From a virus: a DNA stretch of 30,187 bases. The first letter of the stretch is position 1; every line of letters begins with the position of its first letter. The notes below the pieces were generated by a model. It saw only the letters and a list, made by a program, of their open reading frames with translations, ran no database searches and was not told the origin of the DNA. The DNA lies in the IMG/VR virus record IMGVR_UViG_3300022169_000017, positions 1 to 30,187 of that record, one strand, 5' to 3'. Made by a program: the position numbers and the translations under genes. Positions 14,348-29,927 of this stretch are shown in pieces.

Positions 14348-17308
14348 TTATCGCCTTCTAAAATTGTTAGAGTTTGTTAGCATTCCTTGCTGAGCAGGAG
14401 CTTGCAAGCCTCGTCGTTGTAGTTGTACATAAGGAGAAACTACCTGGTTACTGCCAATGTCTATTTTAGATTTAAACAAGTCTGCGAACAACATGTCAGT
14501 AGTTCTAGTAGGTGACATCATACCTTGTTCGCCTCTTTCACCCTGTACACCCTGTTCACCTTGATCACCTTGATCACCTTGTTCTCCAGTATCTCCATCT
14601 AGACCATCTATACCGTCTAAACCGTCTAGACCGTCTAGACCGTCTATACCATCTAGACCGTCTATACCAGCAAGACCGTCTATACCGTCTATACCGTCTA
14701 TACCTATGCCGTCAACACCATCTATGCCGTCTATGCCATCTATGCCGTCTATGCCATCTATACCGTCTATACCGTCTACACCTACACCGCCTGTACCAGT
14801 TCCTGTGTCTGTTGTACCTGTTGTTGGTGTTGGTACAGGGTCTGCATCAATAGTAGAACCTAATGAAGAATCTGTAGGATCTTCGTAGAAGTCGCTAGGG
14901 AACAACGGATCTTCTTCTTCAGTTAGAGGCTCACCAGTCTCGTCAAGCTCAATAGGGGTGTCGTCTATAACAGGTTCTTCATACGCACCTTGAGCGTCTT
15001 CTAAAGATACTCCTGCTCGTAGCTCATCTACAAACCTGCCACCCATTGTGATGTATTCTTCAATAGGTATCTCACCTGCTAAGACACCTTCATACACCTG
15101 TCTTAACACTATGTCATCAGAGACTGGCGCACTGACGCCTGCATCTCCACCACCACCTGCACCGCCTCCAGCACTTGCTCCGCCTTCTGCTGCTCCTCCA
15201 GAAGTATCGGTAGGTGGTTCAAAGACAATAGGCTCTTCATCAAGCTCAAAGTCAGGCAGAGGCTGTTCGGTTTCAACTTGATCAGGCTGAGTGGCTATTA
15301 TTTCCTCACCTGTTGCTGGATCAGTTATGGTTACTTCGGCAGCGGCTGCTTCTTCTTCAGCAACTCTAGAAGCTTCTTCTGCTTGTTCTTGAGCTACTCT
15401 AGCTTCCTCTGCAGCTCTAGCTTCCTCTGCAGCTCTAGCTTCTTCTGCAACTCTAGCGTCAGTAACGGCTTGAGCATCTGCAGCAGCCTGAGCTACTCTA
15501 GCTTCCTCTGCAGCTTGAGCGTCAGCTTGTTCTTGAGCTACTCTAGCTTCTTCAGCAACTCTAGCTTCTTCAGCAACTCTAGCAACCTCTACTCTAGCAG
15601 CTTCAGCCCTAGCTTCTGCTTCTCTAGCAGCCTTAGCGTCTGCTTCTGCTTGCAAATCTAACACAGCTTGTTTTTCTTTTTCAGCGTTTGCTACAGCTTC
15701 TTCTTCAGCAGCTTTGGCTTTTTCAGCAGCAACTCTAGAAGCTTCTTCTGCTTGTTCTTGAGCTACTCTAGCTTCCTCAGCTACTCTAGCTTCCTCAGCT
15801 ACTCTAGCTTCCTCTGCAACTCTAGCTTCCTCTGCAACTCTAGCTTCCTCTGCAACTCTAGCTTCTTCAGCAACTCTACCTTCTTCAGCTATCCTGTCAT
15901 CCTGGACTTCGTTAAAAACGTCTATCAATATATCAACAGTTGAGGAAGTAGAGTCTTCTGATAAAGAGTCTGTAGTGTCCTCAAAAAGATTATAAACAAC
16001 ACCATCTCCTTGGCCCTCAGCGGCGGCTTCTAAAGCAGAAACAGCGTCTAATACATCTTGACTTACAGAGGTGCTTAAATCAGCGTTCTCTGCAAACTTA
16101 GCAAGATCAATTCCCATAAAAGTAGTTGTAACACCACTTGCTGCAATTGAGGAATTATAAGCTGCGTCGTATATAGAAGCTAAATCAGGAGGTATAAACG
16201 TGCCAGCAGGCATCCCAGAAGCGTATGCGTTATACTCCGCAATAGCAGAGTCAACAGCGGCGTTACCAGCTACATCTGCTTTAGCGCCTGCCTCTGCTGC
16301 ATCAAAACCCTTAGCCTGAGCAACCTCTCCCAGACCTGCTATAGCTAAAGTAGCCCAGTCTTCTGCGTGTAGAGTCTCTCCGTTAGCTGCTTTTAAACCT
16401 GTTAAAATAGCAACGCCTGGTAGACCAAACGCTGCAGCAGCCATCTTAATAGGAGTGCTGTTTAGGAACCAGGTTAATGTGCTTTCATCAAAATCATTGG
16501 TAGGTGACTGACTTCCTATTTTATAGTTAAAAGTATTGTATTGATTCTGGCCTGATACTTGGTCAGGAAATAAAACAACTTCACTGTAAAAACTAGGGTT
16601 GTTTGCAGAGTGAGAAGGAGCTGCGTATAACTTTCCGTTGTCTATTATATAAACATCTGTATTATATTTATCGCCTGCCATTAAAGTCTGAGCAGAAGCG
16701 TTTAAGTATTCGTCTTTATCTAAAGCGCCTGACTCATACAAGGAGCTTAAAAACTTTATCTGTGATGTTTTGTACAGCTTGCCATATTCTTCTGCAAAAG
16801 CTTCTGGATCTTCTGATGCTAGAGTGCTTAGGTTAGTTGCCTGCCAGTCTGTGATTTCATTGTCTAACTTAGAAGTTAACTCAAACATCTGATCGTCAGT
16901 TAGAATTTTATTACCAAAATCTGCCGAAGTAATACCGTATTTTTTAAGAAGATTAGTTTGCGTAGAAAGTGCTTTTTCTTCGTCAGTGAATGTGCTGTAA
17001 ATTTCAGAGTTAGCTGCTCTTTGGGGCGCGTTAGCAAGACGTTGTAAAGCAGCTTCAACAGAACCTATTTCGCGTTCTCGATCAGGATCAGGAGCGTCTA
17101 AACCGTATACACCGTATCGGCTAGAGAAATAACTATCATCTTTATTGATAGCTGCGTTTTTCCAGTTAACAGGGTTAGCTACGGTGCTTGGAGCTTCTAA
17201 AGGAAGAACTGTTACAGGAGGCAGCACAGCCGTCCCAGCAGCTATTCTACGTAATGCTTCTTCTTCAGCAAGTCGTCTTGCTTCTTGTCTTCCTCGATTA
17301 CGAGCCAT
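14348..17308 (-). CDS. Large virion protein with coiled-coil hexapeptide repeats and collagen-like triplets (986 aa)
   Basis: Four regions can be seen. Residues 1-470 are ordinary, with a hydrophobic Ala/Gly stretch near 290-330. Residues ~473-646 are tandem ARVAEEA-type repeats forming a long charged helix. A Gly-rich hinge follows near 703-723, and residues ~841-929 are Gly-X-Y triplets (GIDGIDG, GLDGLDG, then GEQGDQGDQGEQG) with one break at GIGIDG. A short Arg-rich C-terminus ends it. Such mixtures are usual in trimeric phage fibres or long rods, so a fibre, appendage or stalk is likely. GGAAG precedes the ATG at 17308. It sits between the holin genes and the tail adaptor. The repeats may vary in number between relatives. 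Confidence 0.6.
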   Translation of the reverse strand: MARNRGRQEARRLAEEEALRRIAAGTAVLPPVTVLPLEAPSTVANPVNWKNAAINKDDSYFSSRYGVYGLDAPDPDREREIGSVEAALQRLANAPQRAANSEIYSTFTDEEKALSTQTNLLKKYGITSADFGNKILTDDQMFELTSKLDNEITDWQATNLSTLASEDPEAFAEEYGKLYKTSQIKFLSSLYESGALDKDEYLNASAQTLMAGDKYNTDVYIIDNGKLYAAPSHSANNPSFYSEVVLFPDQVSGQNQYNTFNYKIGSQSPTNDFDESTLTWFLNSTPIKMAAAAFGLPGVAILTGLKAANGETLHAEDWATLAIAGLGEVAQAKGFDAAEAGAKADVAGNAAVDSAIAEYNAYASGMPAGTFIPPDLASIYDAAYNSSIAASGVTTTFMGIDLAKFAENADLSTSVSQDVLDAVSALEAAAEGQGDGVVYNLFEDTTDSLSEDSTSSTVDILIDVFNEVQDDRIAEEGRVAEEARVAEEARVAEEARVAEEARVAEEARVAEEARVAQEQAEEASRVAAEKAKAAEEEAVANAEKEKQAVLDLQAEADAKAAREAEARAEAARVEVARVAEEARVAEEARVAQEQADAQAAEEARVAQAAADAQAVTDARVAEEARAAEEARAAEEARVAQEQAEEASRVAEEEAAAAEVTITDPATGEEIIATQPDQVETEQPLPDFELDEEPIVFEPPTDTSGGAAEGGASAGGGAGGGGDAGVSAPVSDDIVLRQVYEGVLAGEIPIEEYITMGGRFVDELRAGVSLEDAQGAYEEPVIDDTPIELDETGEPLTEEEDPLFPSDFYEDPTDSSLGSTIDADPVPTPTTGTTDTGTGTGGVGVDGIDGIDGIDGIDGIDGIDGVDGIGIDGIDGIDGLAGIDGLDGIDGLDGLDGLDGIDGLDGDTGEQGDQGDQGEQGVQGERGEQGMMSPTRTTDMLFADLFKSKIDIGSNQVVSPYVQLQRRGLQAPAQQGMLTNSNNFRRR
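14596..14790 (-). repeat. Tandem 9-bp repeats encoding collagen-like Gly-Ile/Leu-Asp
   Basis: On the plus strand the unit is CCGTCTATA or CCGTCTAGA with minor changes, repeated about twenty times. On the coding strand each unit gives Gly-Ile-Asp or Gly-Leu-Asp. The nearly identical units are prone to slippage, which would lengthen or shorten the encoded rod in multiples of three residues. Confidence 0.9.
15757..15891 (-). repeat. Tandem 18-bp repeats encoding AEEARV
   Basis: Units such as CTACTCTAGCTTCCTCAG recur head to tail, encoding repeated Val-Ala-Glu-Glu-Ala-Arg. Further diverged copies lie at about 15370-15620. The translation predicts a long alpha-helical coiled coil. Array length could change by recombination. 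Confidence 0.85.
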
Positions 17309-21085: not shown

Positions 21086-22417
21086 TTAGTAAGTTCCGCC
21101 GTCAAGCGTACCAGTAGTCATGTTGTCTGCGTTAAGATTAGAAAGAGTTACTATAGCCTCTGCTGCACTAGCTGCTGCTGATGTAGCACTGCCAGCTGCG
21201 TTAGTCTCTGATGTTGCTGCGTTAGTCTCGCTGGTAGAAGCAGCTGTAGCACTAGCAGCCGCAGCAGTTGCACTAGTCGCTGCATTAGTAGCCTGTGTAG
21301 AGGCCGTAGAAGCGCTTGTAGCTGCGTTAGCTGCTGAGGTACTAGCTTCACTAGCCTTAGTTGTTGCTGTCGCTGCACTAGTCGCTGCCGCTGTCTCAGA
21401 GGTACTAGCATTAGTAGCTGATGTAGCCGCTGCTGTGGCGCTATTGCTTGCATTAGTCTCTGATGTTGCTGCATTAGTTGCAGACGTTCCTGCTGCTGTA
21501 GCTGAACCAGCTGCATTAGTCTCAGACGTTGCTGCGTTAGCTGCGCTTGTAGACGCTGCTGTTGCTGACGTAGCTGCACTAGATGCTGAGGTGCTGGCGG
21601 CTGTAGCAGAACTAGCAGCATTGCTTTCACTTGTCGCTGCGTTAGCGGCGCTTGTAGACGCTGCTGTTGCTTGAGCAGTGGCTGTAGTTGCACTAGTCGC
21701 TGCATTAGTCTCTGAGGTTGCAGCTGCTGTTGCGCTAGTAGAAGCACTTGTAGCACTTGTTGCTGCGTTAGTCTCAGACGTACCAGCCGCTATAGCACTG
21801 TTAGCAGCGTTAGTAGCAGATGTAGCAGCACCGCTAGCAGAGGCAGCAGATGCTGTTGCAGAGTTAGCTGCGTTTGTAGCGGAAGTAGATGCACCAGAGG
21901 CTGACGTAGCAGCATTGCTTTCGGAGGTTGAGGCATTGCTTGCGCTAGTAGCAGCCTCTGATGCTTTGGTCGTTGCCGTAGAAGCGCTTGTAGACGCACT
22001 AGATGCGCTTGTAGCCGCTTCTGAGGCTTTAGTAGTGGCAGTGGTAGCCGATGTGCTTGCGTTGCTCTCAGACGCACTAGAAGCTGTCTCAGAGGCGCTG
22101 GCTGCTGTAGCACTTGTGGCAGCTCCTGCGGCGCTGGTAGCTGCGTTAGTCTCTGACGTAGCCGCTGCTGTTGCACTTGCTGCTGCTGCGTTAGCATAGT
22201 TCTCAACACCTTGTGCAGAGTTAGCTGCATTAGTAGCTGAGGTAGCTGCTGCATCTTTAGAAATTGTTGCACTTGTAGCTGAGTCACTAGCGCTTACGGC
22301 ACTAGAGGCAGCCTCGCTTGCTTTCGTAGTGGCTAGAACAGCTTGGGCAGTAACTAAGTTAAGAGTGGAGTCTGTGTTGGAATCTCCAGCACCTCCATCT
22401 CCTCTAAATATAGCCAT
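21086..22417 (-). CDS. Ala/Ser/Thr-rich fibre or tail-shaft protein (443 aa)
   Basis: It starts MAIFRGDGGAGDSNTDSTLN, an opening I recall from phage fibre proteins. Most of it is ATSATNAATSETNA-type seven-residue-like repeats, as in the lambda Stf shaft, predicting a long helical or beta trimeric stalk. It closes with LSNLNADNMTTGTLDGGTY. GGAG lies six bases before the ATG. A terminator separates it from the capsid gene upstream, so fibre expression may depend on readthrough. It precedes the main tail fibre and may form its proximal part. Confidence 0.75.
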   Translation of the reverse strand: MAIFRGDGGAGDSNTDSTLNLVTAQAVLATTKASEAASSAVSASDSATSATISKDAAATSATNAANSAQGVENYANAAAASATAAATSETNAATSAAGAATSATAASASETASSASESNASTSATTATTKASEAATSASSASTSASTATTKASEAATSASNASTSESNAATSASGASTSATNAANSATASAASASGAATSATNAANSAIAAGTSETNAATSATSASTSATAAATSETNAATSATTATAQATAASTSAANAATSESNAASSATAASTSASSAATSATAASTSAANAATSETNAAGSATAAGTSATNAATSETNASNSATAAATSATNASTSETAAATSAATATTKASEASTSAANAATSASTASTQATNAATSATAAAASATAASTSETNAATSETNAAGSATSAAASAAEAIVTLSNLNADNMTTGTLDGGTY

Positions 22418-25195: not shown

Positions 25196-25301
25196 TGGGT
25201 TTCTCCTCTTTAGCCTCTAATTTCTCTAAACGCTTAAATAACTCATCAAACTTAGCGTTTACCTGTGATACTACGTGTTGTAAGTCTCTGTCTGTAATCA
25301 T
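25161..25301 (-). CDS. Small coiled-coil protein (46 aa)
   Basis: ATG at 25301 overlaps the portal stop as ATGA. The product is a 30-residue helix (DRDLQHVVSQVNAKFDEL, then FKRLEKLEAKEEK) plus a basic tail (GNAKKGQSKS). Leu/Val spacing suggests a dimeric coiled coil. Its 3' end overlaps the next gene by 35 bases in another frame. Function unknown. Confidence 0.65.
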   Translation of the reverse strand: MITDRDLQHVVSQVNAKFDELFKRLEKLEAKEEKPSGNAKKGQSKS

Positions 25302-27310
25302 TGCGGCAATTGTCCTAGTGGTGGGAAGGTTGCTTGTGGAGCTGGCTGTGGCTGTGCAGCAGGCGCTGGAGTTGCTGAGACAGGGTTACCCTCTTTAACA
25401 GCTATTTCACGCTCTTTTAGAAGCTGCTGAGATATTTTTAAACGCTTCTCAAACTCTTTATCTTCTGCATCTCCGGCCTGTAGATTGGTTGTAACAGCCT
25501 TGATACGGTCAATTTCAAGCTCTTGAGGCATAATCTGCGTTTCCATAGCCAGTTTCTGCGCTCTAGCTTGTGATTCAGAGGCTTGGCCGTTAAGTGCAGC
25601 GGTTTGTGACGCCTGGAACTGCAGCTGAGCCTGTTGAGTAGCTTGCTGTGCTTGCTGAGCTTCTGGATTAGGCTGATTTGCTTGTTTAAGAGACGCAATA
25701 AGCTCTTCACGGTTAGACAAATTCATGTTGTCAATTATTGATTGTACTAATTGTGGATACATTGGCGTATCTGGAGACATAGTTTGCAGAAGTTGTACAA
25801 GCTGAGTCACTTCATACTCACGGGCAATGATGCCTAAGCTACTAGACGTTTCAAACTTGTAGTCAGCTACTGGATACAGCTCAGGCTCAAACTGCATATA
25901 CCTATGTGCTGCTTTTGTAACGAAAGGTATTAGGAAAGCTTCCTGGAAGTTGATCAATGTGCGCTTGTGACGCTTAATGATCGCTCCTAAGCTCATAGAG
26001 ATGCCCGCAGCGGTCGCATCGCCGTTAATAGACCCTGATGTACCAGCTGAGTCTATAGCGCCTGTAGCGGTCTGTACCATGCGTTGTAGAGCCTCTGCTT
26101 GTGCAAAGGTAACCTGACCTACTTGACCAAAGTTAAATGGCTGTAGAACCTCACGAGGATCGCCGTTGGTGAGAATGATCTTACCAGGTCTAATCTCTGG
26201 CTTAGAGCCTCTAGGCATACGACTTGCGTCCATTGCCATCATTGGGTGGATAGTGAGAGCAAGAGCGTCAATACGAGCGCGTAGTTCCGCGTCTAACGCT
26301 TTCTGGCTGTTGTAGCCTTTCTCACATACTCCACGACCCCAGAAGCGGCTAGGAACAACATCCCACGGGAACGCAACAATAGGTCGATCACCCATCATGT
26401 AGGGGTTCTTCTCAGCCTTGAGCAAAGTACCATCGTTAGCTATAACAACAACAGCTTCAACGTAGTAGCTATCGTCTTCGTCATCAAACTCTATAACTTC
26501 TTCGTCATCGCTTTCCTTCATAGCTTCGTCAAGGAGGTGGCGGGGAACAAGTCCAAAGTATTTGGTTAGTCTCACTTTGTCTTCATCAAACGAGGTAAGG
26601 TCTTGATCAGGCTCAATGTCAAAGTCAGGAGAAGCATTAGAGATTTCAGCTTCGCGGTAAACGCCTTGCTCCTGCAGCTGCTCTACAACGTGCATAGAAA
26701 CAAACTCATCGACAGCACAGCCCATAGCGTCTTCAACAGACGTAGCCAGTGGGTCAATAAGGAAGTTCTGAGGCATGATAGGATTTAGCTTAATGCAAGT
26801 ACGGTCAACAATGTTAACACCTACTGCTGTCAACTCACCGTCCATAATAGGCTGTGTGGCTGGTTGAAACTCTTTCTCTTCTGTAATAACTATCTCAGCA
26901 ATGCCTGTACCAAATACAGCAGCGTTCAGGATACACTCAGCAACGCCTTTACGGATACGGTTTCTTTTAAAGTCAGCGTATAGAAGCTCACGAAGCATCG
27001 CAATGTCTTCGGGGTTTTGATCCATCTTGTCGTCTTTGAGGTCGAACCACTTACCACGACCAAAGGTAGCTTCTTCCAGCTCTGCTACAGAAGACTCAAC
27101 AGCTTGCTGTAACGCTGGGCTAATAATCTTAGATCGTTCAGACTCTCGCGTCCTGTCTTCAGCAGACCATTGACCACGCCAGAGGCGGTAGTACTCGTCA
27201 AAGCGTTGGGAATAGTTCTCTTCAAAGTTGTCGCGCCATGCTAAGCACTTCTCACCTACCCAGCCTTCTAGTGATTGCTCAATCGTAAACTTGTCTTGAT
27301 CTAATTCCAT
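25298..27310 (-). CDS. Portal protein (P22-like), 670 aa
   Basis: The dodecameric channel for DNA entry and exit. The start (TIEQSLEGWVGEKCLAWRDN) and YYRLWRGQWSAEDRTRESERSK are recalled hallmarks of portal proteins in this class. WDVVPSRFWGRGVCEKGYNSQKA, ELRARIDALAL and a Gln/Ala-rich C-terminal helix (residues ~560-600) fit the portal crown/barrel. It lies right after the large terminase and before the head genes. Confidence 0.9.
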   Translation of the reverse strand: MELDQDKFTIEQSLEGWVGEKCLAWRDNFEENYSQRFDEYYRLWRGQWSAEDRTRESERSKIISPALQQAVESSVAELEEATFGRGKWFDLKDDKMDQNPEDIAMLRELLYADFKRNRIRKGVAECILNAAVFGTGIAEIVITEEKEFQPATQPIMDGELTAVGVNIVDRTCIKLNPIMPQNFLIDPLATSVEDAMGCAVDEFVSMHVVEQLQEQGVYREAEISNASPDFDIEPDQDLTSFDEDKVRLTKYFGLVPRHLLDEAMKESDDEEVIEFDDEDDSYYVEAVVVIANDGTLLKAEKNPYMMGDRPIVAFPWDVVPSRFWGRGVCEKGYNSQKALDAELRARIDALALTIHPMMAMDASRMPRGSKPEIRPGKIILTNGDPREVLQPFNFGQVGQVTFAQAEALQRMVQTATGAIDSAGTSGSINGDATAAGISMSLGAIIKRHKRTLINFQEAFLIPFVTKAAHRYMQFEPELYPVADYKFETSSSLGIIAREYEVTQLVQLLQTMSPDTPMYPQLVQSIIDNMNLSNREELIASLKQANQPNPEAQQAQQATQQAQLQFQASQTAALNGQASESQARAQKLAMETQIMPQELEIDRIKAVTTNLQAGDAEDKEFEKRLKISQQLLKEREIAVKEGNPVSATPAPAAQPQPAPQATFPPLGQLPQ

Positions 27311-27312
27311 AT

Positions 27313-28566
27313 CTAGTATCCCGCGTATTTGTCTAAAAATTGATAGTCGTCTTCTTCATAGTCAAAAGAGTAGGCAACCTTAGCAAGCTGGTCTATGTAC
27401 GCTAGAGAATCTATCAAGTCATCGTGGACTAATTGATTAGGAAACTGGAACAACTCGTCTAAGAACTGAGAGTTCCAACTACCCTTGTTAAGTGTTATCG
27501 TTCCGTGTTCAAAGCGGCCTTGCAGCGCCCATACAATACGGTCTACTTTCTTCTTGTTACCGTGTGTCAACTCTTCAACACGAAAGAACTGTTGGTTCTT
27601 CTTCATCATGTCGTTTAGGTAGGGATACACAGCGTTCTTTAATGCACCCTTCTCAATACCAACAGCTACTGGCTTGTAGTCTCTGACTGCTTCAAAGATT
27701 CGTCTGGCAGTCTCTTCGACGCCCCAACGGCCATGTACGATATTAGCAACCCACCAGCCGTCAACACTCGCTTTAACAACAGCGATAGACGTCTGATCCA
27801 AGCGTTTAGTCTTAGTTGTAACCTTCTGGACATCTGCAAATCCTGCCAAATCGACAGCAATATAATACTCACCATCGCTCGGCTCATCCTCACTGAATTT
27901 AATGTAGTCTTCTTTAAACAGCTCACTGCCTTGTGCTTCAAAGCTCGCCATAAACTCCTGTCGAAAGGAGAAGGTAGACATAGACTTCTTAGCTGCCTCA
28001 ATCTCTGCATTGTCGAGAAGAGGGTTGTCATAGCTTGTAAAGTGATAACCAGCAAAGGTTTCATCTTCTGCTACACAAGCATACGTATACAGCTCATAGA
28101 AGTGGTTACGACCCATTGGCGTACCAATAAACATCGCTGAACCCTTCTGATCCGCAAGAGCAGGTCTTAGGATTTGCTCCCAGACCTCTGGCTTCATGTC
28201 AGCATACTCATCCATAACCAGGAACTTGAGGCTAACACCACGCATAGTCTCTGGTCTGTCAGCGCCTTTTAGGGCTATGGTAGCGCCATTGACAAGCTTT
28301 ATCTGCAGGTTGTTAACGTGGCTACTGGCAATAACAGGGTTACCTAGCTCAAGCAACATGTCCCACATAATGTCTCGTGCCTGCCCCTGTGTAGGCGCTA
28401 CATAGAAGACACTACCTTTAGTAGCAGCTAAACCTTCAATGATTAACTTCCACGCAGCTAAACGAGACTTACCTGTACGTCTACCAGCAGCTATTACTTG
28501 AAACCTTACAGGATCATTCCATACCTTCTGCTGCCACGGTAACAGTGAGACATTTAAGTCAGTCAT
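27313..28566 (-). CDS. Terminase large subunit (417 aa)
   Basis: The packaging motor. Walker A is AAGRRTGKS (residues 26-34). Walker B is LKFLVMDE, with Asp119 and Glu120. The coupling motif is FIGTP at 146-150. The nuclease acids are Asp239 (YIAVDLAG), Glu305 (GIEKGA) and Asp382/383/386 (HDDLIDSLAY). Both ATPase and nuclease domains are complete, at a compact length. Start overlaps the 45-aa gene by 8 bp and the stop lies two bases before the portal ATG. Confidence 0.95.
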   Translation of the reverse strand: MTDLNVSLLPWQQKVWNDPVRFQVIAAGRRTGKSRLAAWKLIIEGLAATKGSVFYVAPTQGQARDIMWDMLLELGNPVIASSHVNNLQIKLVNGATIALKGADRPETMRGVSLKFLVMDEYADMKPEVWEQILRPALADQKGSAMFIGTPMGRNHFYELYTYACVAEDETFAGYHFTSYDNPLLDNAEIEAAKKSMSTFSFRQEFMASFEAQGSELFKEDYIKFSEDEPSDGEYYIAVDLAGFADVQKVTTKTKRLDQTSIAVVKASVDGWWVANIVHGRWGVEETARRIFEAVRDYKPVAVGIEKGALKNAVYPYLNDMMKKNQQFFRVEELTHGNKKKVDRIVWALQGRFEHGTITLNKGSWNSQFLDELFQFPNQLVHDDLIDSLAYIDQLAKVAYSFDYEEDDYQFLDKYAGY

Positions 28567-28697: not shown

Positions 28698-29078
28698 TCA
28701 GTACAACCACATTACAGGTTTAGCATTACCGTCAACACTGCGCATATCAATATGGACGAACACACTGTGTATTCCAATGCCTCCAAATCCCATCTTGATA
28801 GCTTCCTCAACCAACGTGTACCTTTGTTGTGACGTACTAACTTTAATGTCTGCTGCAATGCCTTGGGCATGAGTTCCTGCTTTCTCCTTTCCCTTTCTCG
28901 ATTCAATGGGATGTTCGGGGCTACGATAGCCGCTAGTGATAACAAATGGGAAACCACACCTTGCTCTAAGCAAGTCTAGCTTCAATAGGAATGTATCTTT
29001 AATTTCATTTTCACCTGTATGCTGACAGGCAAACTCTTCTTTAGTGAAGTAGTCTAAGTCTTGGTTAATATCATACAT
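28698..29078 (-). CDS. M15-type zinc peptidase endolysin (126 aa)
   Basis: It should cut peptide bonds in peptidoglycan. Motifs are SGYRSPEHP (49-57), GTHAQGIAADI, with zinc ligands His70 and Asp77, and GIGIHSVFVHIDMR, with the third ligand His109 and Asp111. Length fits single-domain M15A enzymes. There is no signal peptide, so it needs a holin; candidates are at 17311-17852, over 10 kb away in the same transcription direction. It overlaps the gene upstream by 8 bp. Confidence 0.9.
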   Translation of the reverse strand: MYDINQDLDYFTKEEFACQHTGENEIKDTFLLKLDLLRARCGFPFVITSGYRSPEHPIESRKGKEKAGTHAQGIAADIKVSTSQQRYTLVEEAIKMGFGGIGIHSVFVHIDMRSVDGNAKPVMWLY

Positions 29079-29451
29079 CTGAATAGTTACCCTCTTCTAT
29101 GTCTTCTTCACCACCGGCAATAACAGTAGTCTCACCACCAACACCAGTAATACTTATGTTGATAGCACCTCTACCTCCTCCAGCCTTGTCCTTCTCGAAA
29201 TAGCTAACAGGTAACAAACGATCCATACAAAGCTTCCAAGCTGCTGCCTGGTTCTTATGGTCGTCATCAAGAGCTGCATTGAGGATACTGTCTAACACCT
29301 TCCTACTTTTAGGAGATGCAAGCATCCGTGCTTTGTACTCATTGATTGTTGCAGCATCACCTTTAGGTCTACCAACTGAATTCCTGTTTCCTTTCTTAAC
29401 AGATGAAACAGCCTTCTTTGAGGGTCTACCTACTCTTTTGTTCTCAGACAC
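29071..29451 (-). CDS. Putative small terminase subunit (126 aa)
   Basis: The basic N-terminus (KRVGRPSKKAVSSVKKGNRN, then SVGRPKGDAAT) contains two AT-hook-like GRP cores. A helical middle (RKVLDSILNAALDDDHKNQA, AAWKLCMDRLLPVSYF) and a Gly-rich beta tail (ITGVGGETTVIAGG) follow. Position as first late gene, upstream of the large subunit, and DNA-binding features support the call. Sequence homology to known small terminases is not evident to me. Start is GTG with GAGG seven bases upstream. Confidence 0.55.
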   Translation of the reverse strand: MSENKRVGRPSKKAVSSVKKGNRNSVGRPKGDAATINEYKARMLASPKSRKVLDSILNAALDDDHKNQAAAWKLCMDRLLPVSYFEKDKAGGGRGAINISITGVGGETTVIAGGEEDIEEGNYSDV

Positions 29452-29479
29452 AGAATTGCCTCTATAGTCTATAAAGTTC

Positions 29480-29498: not shown

Positions 29499-29586
29499 TC
29501 TTTTAATGTCTCTATGAGAACAACTACTGGAAGTTGAAAGTAGTTATTCTTTTAGGGTCTCTATCAAGTCTTTAAAAGGTCTCTTA
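29499..29586 (-). repeat. Three imperfect leader repeats of AGAGAC-TAAAAGA type
   Basis: Plus-strand copies are TCTTTTAATGTCTCTAT (29499-29515), TCTTTTAGGGTCTCTAT (29548-29564; two mismatches) and the looser TCTTTAAAAGGTCTCTTA (29569-29586). The first two flank the 29517-29550 hairpin. All three fall in the predicted untranslated leader of the late mRNA. Confidence 0.7.
29517..29550 (-). promoter_or_regulatory. Leader hairpin of the late transcript
   Basis: On the transcript AGAATAACTAC pairs with GTAGTTGTTCT (11 bp, one G-U) around a 12-base loop. There is no U-run tightly after it, so it is likely an mRNA structure, not a terminator. It is about 50-80 bases into the leader. Confidence 0.55.
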
Positions 29587-29590
29587 CTTA

Positions 29591-29602
29591 ACTCTATAGA
29601 GT
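29591..29602. promoter_or_regulatory. 12-bp palindrome at the late transcription start
   Basis: ACTCTATAGAGT is self-complementary and overlaps the predicted +1 of the late promoter. It parallels the inverted repeat at the + promoter start (800-817) in place but not in sequence. Confidence 0.5.
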
Positions 29603-29604
29603 CT

Positions 29605-29633
29605 ATTATAGCATATTTTAGAGCAAAAGTCAA
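29605..29633 (-). promoter_or_regulatory. Strong sigma70-type late promoter
   Basis: On the minus strand, TTGACT (29633-29628), a 17-bp spacer and TATAAT (29610-29605) occur with an extended -10 TGC. Predicted start is near 29598, leaving a leader of about 147 bases to the first late gene at 29451. It should drive packaging, portal and downstream genes. Confidence 0.88.
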
Positions 29634-29638
29634 GCAAA

Positions 29639-29757
29639 GATTACTATATAGAGTAAATAAATTACATAGGTCTGTTTCATACATCCCCGTCCCTTCATCA
29701 GCGGATCTCAGCAGCCCTAGAGACTCCGCAGTCCCGCCCTTATTCTCTATAGTAATC
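29639..29757. repeat. Nested inverted repeats (long outer arms, inner hairpin)
   Basis: The outer left arm (29639-29660, starting GATTACTATATAGAG) matches the complement of the right arm (29740-29757), which reads GATTACTATAGAGAATAA on the minus strand, with two 2-base gaps. Inside, GCGGA-TCTC (29701-29709) pairs with GAGA-C-TCCGC (ending 29729), 9 bp with one bulge around a 10-base loop. The structure sits just upstream of the late promoter. Confidence 0.7.
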
Positions 29758-29927
29758 AATAGCTTACAAGGACTATATAGACTATGCACCACCTTGTTAT
29801 TGTTGTTCTAATTTGACCCTTTTTTGTATCTAGGCGGGTACAGTAACAATCTCCGCACACCCCAGACCCTCCCCGGCCTCTTTAGCACACCCACCTTAGT
29901 CTATCCAGTCACCAGAGTTATAGCGGG

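Follow-up and report, generated by a model that had tools for sequence, protein, structure and literature searches.

A conserved DNA motif cassette upstream of the late promoter of a marine phage clade as a candidate replication origin

What purpose could an unusually symmetrical piece of DNA serve between the early and late genes of a phage? The question was raised by an IMG/VR contig of a marine phage, linear and 30,187 bases long (hereafter the window, meaning the whole stretch analysed), in which an earlier note had flagged positions 29639-29757 as a nested inverted-repeat element. A replication origin, a packaging recognition site, a small RNA and a transcription switch had been proposed as its possible function.

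In this contig, the early genes occupy the + strand from 1 to ~6.9 kb (family A polymerase, 5'-3' exonuclease, phosphoesterase and class II ribonucleotide reductase) and the late genes the - strand (portal, large terminase, M15 peptidase and putative small terminase). The flagged element lies within ~740 non-coding bases at the right end of the window; in the relative L003, the corresponding region is part of the ~1.16 kb that separate the first early gene from the small terminase gene. The map of the clade is consistent with a circular behaviour. The late genes referred to below are the following:

25298-27310, - strand: portal gene
27313-28566, - strand: large terminase (TerL) gene
29071-29451, - strand: putative small terminase (TerS) gene, first late gene, 126 aa, named by its position; two AT-hook-like GRPK motifs

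The putative TerS, whose AT-hook-like motifs read VGRPSKK and VGRPKGD, is 71-90% identical among aligned relatives. It matched no family of Pfam, PHROG or NCBIfam at the usual threshold, its AlphaFold model (pLDDT 49) was too poor for use, and no cultured phage matched either the intergenic DNA or the 126-aa protein. Using the small-terminase protein and DNA patterns, we gathered ~200 relatives; 32 non-redundant relatives were aligned, 66 upstream regions were used for motif counts, 74 relatives for spacing and 27 contigs for gene association.

Other features of these genomes were recorded along the way. Two late proteins of the window, both on the - strand, are repetitive: a 986-aa protein (14348-17308) in which long EEARVAEEARVA repeats are accompanied by a collagen-like stretch (GIDGIDG/GDTGEQGDQG), and a 443-aa protein (21086-22417) composed nearly entirely of Ala/Ser/Thr/Asn repeats. 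The early-operon ORF of L003 nearest to the intergenic region (L296:9637-9927, - strand) matches Pfam PF24229, the Staphylococcus phage terminal-repeat protein TreK (E 7e-16). The apparently near-complete 35.3-kb contig of L136 (G006) opens between the small- and large-terminase genes.

Pairing of the inverted repeats

The outer repeat consists of two arms, to which no strand is assigned:

29639-29656: promoter-proximal outer arm, containing a CTATATAG box; not conserved
29740-29757: distal outer arm, overlapping the IHF-like site and a CTATAGAG box; its sequence is kept, but its pairing with the first arm is not

A repeat search gave arms of 18 nt each, complementary at 16 of 18 positions (89%) and separated by 83 nt. 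The coordinates given earlier were thus right, and the arm lengths of 22 and 18 bases around an 80-base interior were slightly off. Counting 18-mer inverted repeats that match at 16 or more positions across a gap of at most 100, we found this one alone in the intergenic region and in the whole 30 kb, and nothing comparable appeared in dinucleotide shuffles of the region (0/100) or of the window (0/4). The remark that the locus has more symmetry than a promoter needs is therefore sound as regards chance, but such symmetry does not by itself point to a folded structure. Among the 32 non-redundant relatives, the promoter-proximal arm falls in a spacer of highly variable length and is absent beyond the closest group. 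Even in the closest 11 relatives, 8 of the 16 pairs of the outer helix are lost, uncompensated, in at least one sequence, and none of the pairs is altered on both sides. The outer pairing is not conserved in these alignments.

The intergenic region holds five copies of a palindromic box, CTATATAG/CTATAGAG, at 29460, 29592, 29644, 29745 and 29773. Copies of a palindrome can pair with each other in every case, and the complementarity of the arms is due to this recurrence. On the reading preferred below, the outer inverted repeat would be incidental, its arms being copies of the box CTATATAG/ACTCTATAGAGT.

We then considered whether the element might be a structured non-coding RNA built of nested hairpins. 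Folded as RNA, the 119 nt reach -29.1 kcal/mol on the + strand (z -4.6 against shuffles) and -34.5 kcal/mol on the - strand (z -3.2), better than shuffled sequence as such a reading would have it, but the 76-nt interior by itself is unremarkable (z -1.5 and -1.2); the advantage is owed mainly to the outer arms. The inner G+C-rich hairpin described earlier is present on the - strand (GCGGA-g-UCUC...GAGA-UCCGC, 29701-29729). Its GCGGA/TCCGC stem is unchanged, and hence pairable, in 32/32 aligned relatives, whereas the four inner pairs are broken in many of them and the loop consists of 18-20 variable bases. No pair changed on both sides among 30 distinct sequences, and the RNAalifold covariation term was 0. 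An invariant GCGGA/TCCGC next to broken inner pairs and a variable loop, with no covariation, argues for recognition of a DNA sequence and not for a folded RNA. Moreover, Rfam returned no match at the gathering score and only chance-level matches below it, a Rho-independent terminator was not found, the promoter-proximal arm is unconserved, and no promoter belonging to such an RNA was shown. With covariation lacking in the outer helix as in the inner one, the nested structure was not upheld, and we rejected the structured RNA, small RNA included, as highly improbable.

Two further candidates were discarded. A hammerhead ribozyme was suggested by CTGATGA...GAAAC in the window, but every close relative has GTAAC in place of GAAAC, and L008 has CTGAAGA; a small ORF at 29544-29792 (- strand) belongs to no family, and the indels of the region vary among relatives. 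As this case illustrates, repeated palindromic binding sites can give rise to a conspicuous hairpin, even one that folds with a good z-score.

Conserved motifs, their spacing and the late promoter

Outside the pairing, the alignments revealed the following motifs, given in their order on the late strand:

29860-29878, - strand: G-rich tract GGCCGGGGAGGGTCTGGGG, a short way upstream of block A; the DNA stability of the region is highest here in 66 relatives
29807-29847, - strand: block A, GTTACTGTACCCGCCTAGATACAAAAAAGGGTCAAATTAGA, AT-rich and conserved; a stretch of low stability, a candidate unwinding region, begins here
29754-29766, - strand: IHF-like site TAAGCTATTGATT, reverse complement of WATCAAnnnnTTR, at a constant distance to its neighbours
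29722-29731, - strand: left GC half-site CTGCGGAGnC, invariant in 32/32 aligned relatives carrying the element
29701-29707, - strand: right GC half-site GATCCGC, with ATCCGC invariant in 32/32; together with the left half-site, the inner hairpin of the earlier note
29689-29696, - strand: purine box GAAGGGAC (AAGGnAC), kept also in relatives without the GC half-sites
29605-29633, - strand: sigma-70 late promoter TTGACTTTTGCTCTAAAATATGCTATAAT with extended -10, conserved in the clade
29591-29602, no strand assigned: palindrome ACTCTATAGAGT, just after the -10; candidate operator

The order on the late strand is thus block A, IHF-like site, GC half-sites, AAGGnAC, a variable spacer, the sigma-70 late promoter and the start palindrome. 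Distances were compared in 74 relatives. Block A and AAGGnAC are 109-110, 128-133 or 141-142 bp apart (164 in one relative), block A and the IHF-like site 50 or 61-62 bp in nearly all, and the IHF-like site and AAGGnAC 59-60 or 70-71 bp, so that the alternative classes differ by about one or two helical turns. In contrast, the distance from AAGGnAC to the -35 took 21 different values between 45 and 109 bp. A fixed and phased internal spacing together with a variable distance to the promoter indicates that the cassette forms one helically phased unit, untied from the promoter. Relatives that lack the GC half-sites retain block A and AAGGnAC, along with an IHF-like site that is either exact or degenerate. 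What is conserved at this locus is, on the strength of these comparisons, an array of motifs in double-stranded DNA.

The late promoter had been recognised correctly: TTGACT and TATAAT, 17 bp apart on the - strand with a TG preceding the -10, are conserved across relatives and fit a -35/-10 pair at 16-18 bp. A CTATATAG/CTATAGAG box sits at its start site in 32/32 aligned relatives, and CTATATAG boxes are enriched upstream, with 62 copies in 22 of the 66 regions where shuffles gave 2.8. The box CTATATAG/ACTCTATAGAGT is probably an operator of the late promoter. The conserved near-consensus promoter and these boxes are what a transcription switch would call for, in which the palindromes and the IHF-like site would form an operator complex governing the divergent early promoter as well as the late sigma-70 one. 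The promoter and the boxes of the proposed switch are real, but the fixed distance between cassette and promoter is missing, as the spacing is neither constant nor phased; moreover, the promoter-proximal arm is not conserved and the GC half-sites track the replication genes (see below), not the late module. A switch is thus an unlikely account of the locus; it may hold for the palindromes, not for the cassette.

Association with replication genes and with terminase genes

We compared the distribution of the GC element (the paired GC half-sites) with that of phage genes in 27 contigs. It was present in 15/15 contigs sharing 73-100% helicase-primase identity with L003 and in 0/12 of those at 46-52%. 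This division goes back to what is in essence a single deep split within the early module, possibly one old event, such that the 27 contigs are not independent. PolA divides likewise (77-97% with the GC element, 60-63% without it), and an SSB homologue was detected solely in contigs carrying the element. For the terminases, the ranges overlap: TerS is 79-98% identical with the GC element and 73-90% without it, TerL 84-94% and 83-86%, respectively. Given that the helicase gene lies kilobases away and the TerS gene ~0.3 kb away, closeness does not explain the association with helicase-primase.

These figures bear on a packaging site, pac- or cos-like, at which TerS would bind motifs flanking an IHF bend upstream of its own gene and TerL would cut the two-fold symmetric GC half-sites. 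In lambda cos (cosN-R3-IHF-R2-R1), IHF binds between the TerS sites R3 and R2 and the spacing is critical (PMC4856287). The cassette resembles lambda cos, cosB included, in having an IHF-type site amid conserved boxes, a strict and phased spacing, a two-fold symmetric GC-rich core and a position immediately upstream of the putative TerS gene, whose product carries the AT-hook-like motifs. It differs from it in the order and sequence of its parts and in that the GC element follows the replication genes, not the terminase, contigs without it having TerS and TerL about as similar as those of carriers. Only two contigs end inside the element (L080 and L210), the other ends being spread across the region, and the near-complete contigs (32-37 kb) share no common opening point; both observations speak against fixed cohesive ends at the element. 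A pile-up of contig ends as proof of cos was rejected since none was seen. A similarity to the lambda R site was likewise rejected: the box of one relative matches at 10/12, but that of the window compares with the lambda left end at chance level (300/500 shuffles equally good). It should be noted that the strict IHF consensus fails to detect the lambda IHF site. Headful packaging from a pac site in this region is possible, and the proposal of a packaging site keeps that much, without the co-segregation with TerS and TerL or the clustering of contig ends; as the function of the cassette, packaging appears rather unlikely. An attP site was rejected too, as no integrase family was found in seven clade records (positive controls included).

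A candidate host-assisted replication origin

Exact DnaA boxes (TTATCCACA) numbered 94 in 39 of the 66 upstream regions, whereas the downstream coding control had 0 and shuffles predict 0.8; the other 27 regions have none, and the window itself contains no DnaA box, either exact or with one mismatch. The boxes lie just beyond block A, at ~-240 to -400 from the late promoter, and their distances to block A show a moderate 11-bp phasing (0.52). L003, L005, L006 and L007 carry 2-4 boxes each; in the L003 contig (L296, 11.2 kb read), the only two exact DnaA boxes fall in this region. The IHF consensus was found as a single copy in each of 33 regions (3.2 in shuffles), always on one strand and between -110 and -180, and on the basis of this consensus IHF may bind there. 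According to nearest-neighbour calculations in 66 relatives, the G-rich tract, at -40 to -50 relative to block A, has the most stable duplex, and stability is low from ~+10 to +80 of block A, though AT-rich stretches occur at promoters too.

A different inverted motif, GTGAC-n14-18-GTCAC, was observed upstream of the late promoter (L061, L146 and L155), with 70 copies in 22 relatives and 0 in shuffles. In some relatives, it stands in place of or alongside the DnaA boxes; these repeats may be iterons or operators.

We propose that the cassette could form the core of a replication origin that relies on host DnaA and IHF, in a clade whose replication enzymes are of T7 type but which lacks a T7-type RNA polymerase, and give this reading a probability of about 0.5. 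Among the functions suggested earlier, an origin is the best supported, by the DnaA boxes of relatives, the IHF-like site, the rigid spacing and the co-segregation with replication genes; DnaA boxes in the window are the part that is missing. No initiator gene was identified, which we count against an origin. The origin core would lie between the divergent early and late operons and be bent by IHF in the section from block A to the GC half-sites. The AT-rich stretch beginning at block A would be melted by DnaA and/or a phage initiator, acting through DnaA boxes in most relatives and through other repeats where these are missing. A phage early protein would bind the GC half-sites and AAGGnAC and would then help to load the T7-type helicase-primase.

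Both oriC and the origins of plasmids such as pSC101, R6K and P1 are known to comprise DnaA boxes, an IHF site and an AT-rich stretch (PMC4980987). Like Escherichia coli oriC and these iteron-plasmid origins, the region has DnaA boxes of standard consensus (in relatives), an IHF site at a fixed position, an AT-rich stretch of low stability, phased spacing and, in some members, repeats. Unlike them, its phage has a T7-type helicase-primase and PolA, and the DnaA boxes of the clade are gained and lost between close relatives. We know of no counterpart to AAGGnAC or to the paired GC half-sites CTGCGGAGnC/GATCCGC. The transcription-primed origin of T7 offers another comparison, as the clade shares its T7-type helicase-primase and family A polymerase. 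However, a T7-type RNA polymerase was absent from five near-complete relatives (with T7 as the positive control), making T7-style priming from phage promoters unlikely, and we know of no role for host-type DnaA or IHF motifs in T7 initiation.

More tentatively, an oriC-like complex of DnaA boxes, IHF bend and unwinding stretch might be joined to a new, clade-specific initiator site made of the paired GC half-sites, the two together starting replication in a clade that has the T7-type helicase-primase and polymerase but no T7 RNA polymerase. How replication starts in phages with a T7-type replisome and no T7-type RNA polymerase has no clear answer in the literature that we searched. A candidate origin in an abundant group of uncultivated phages would make this question directly testable.
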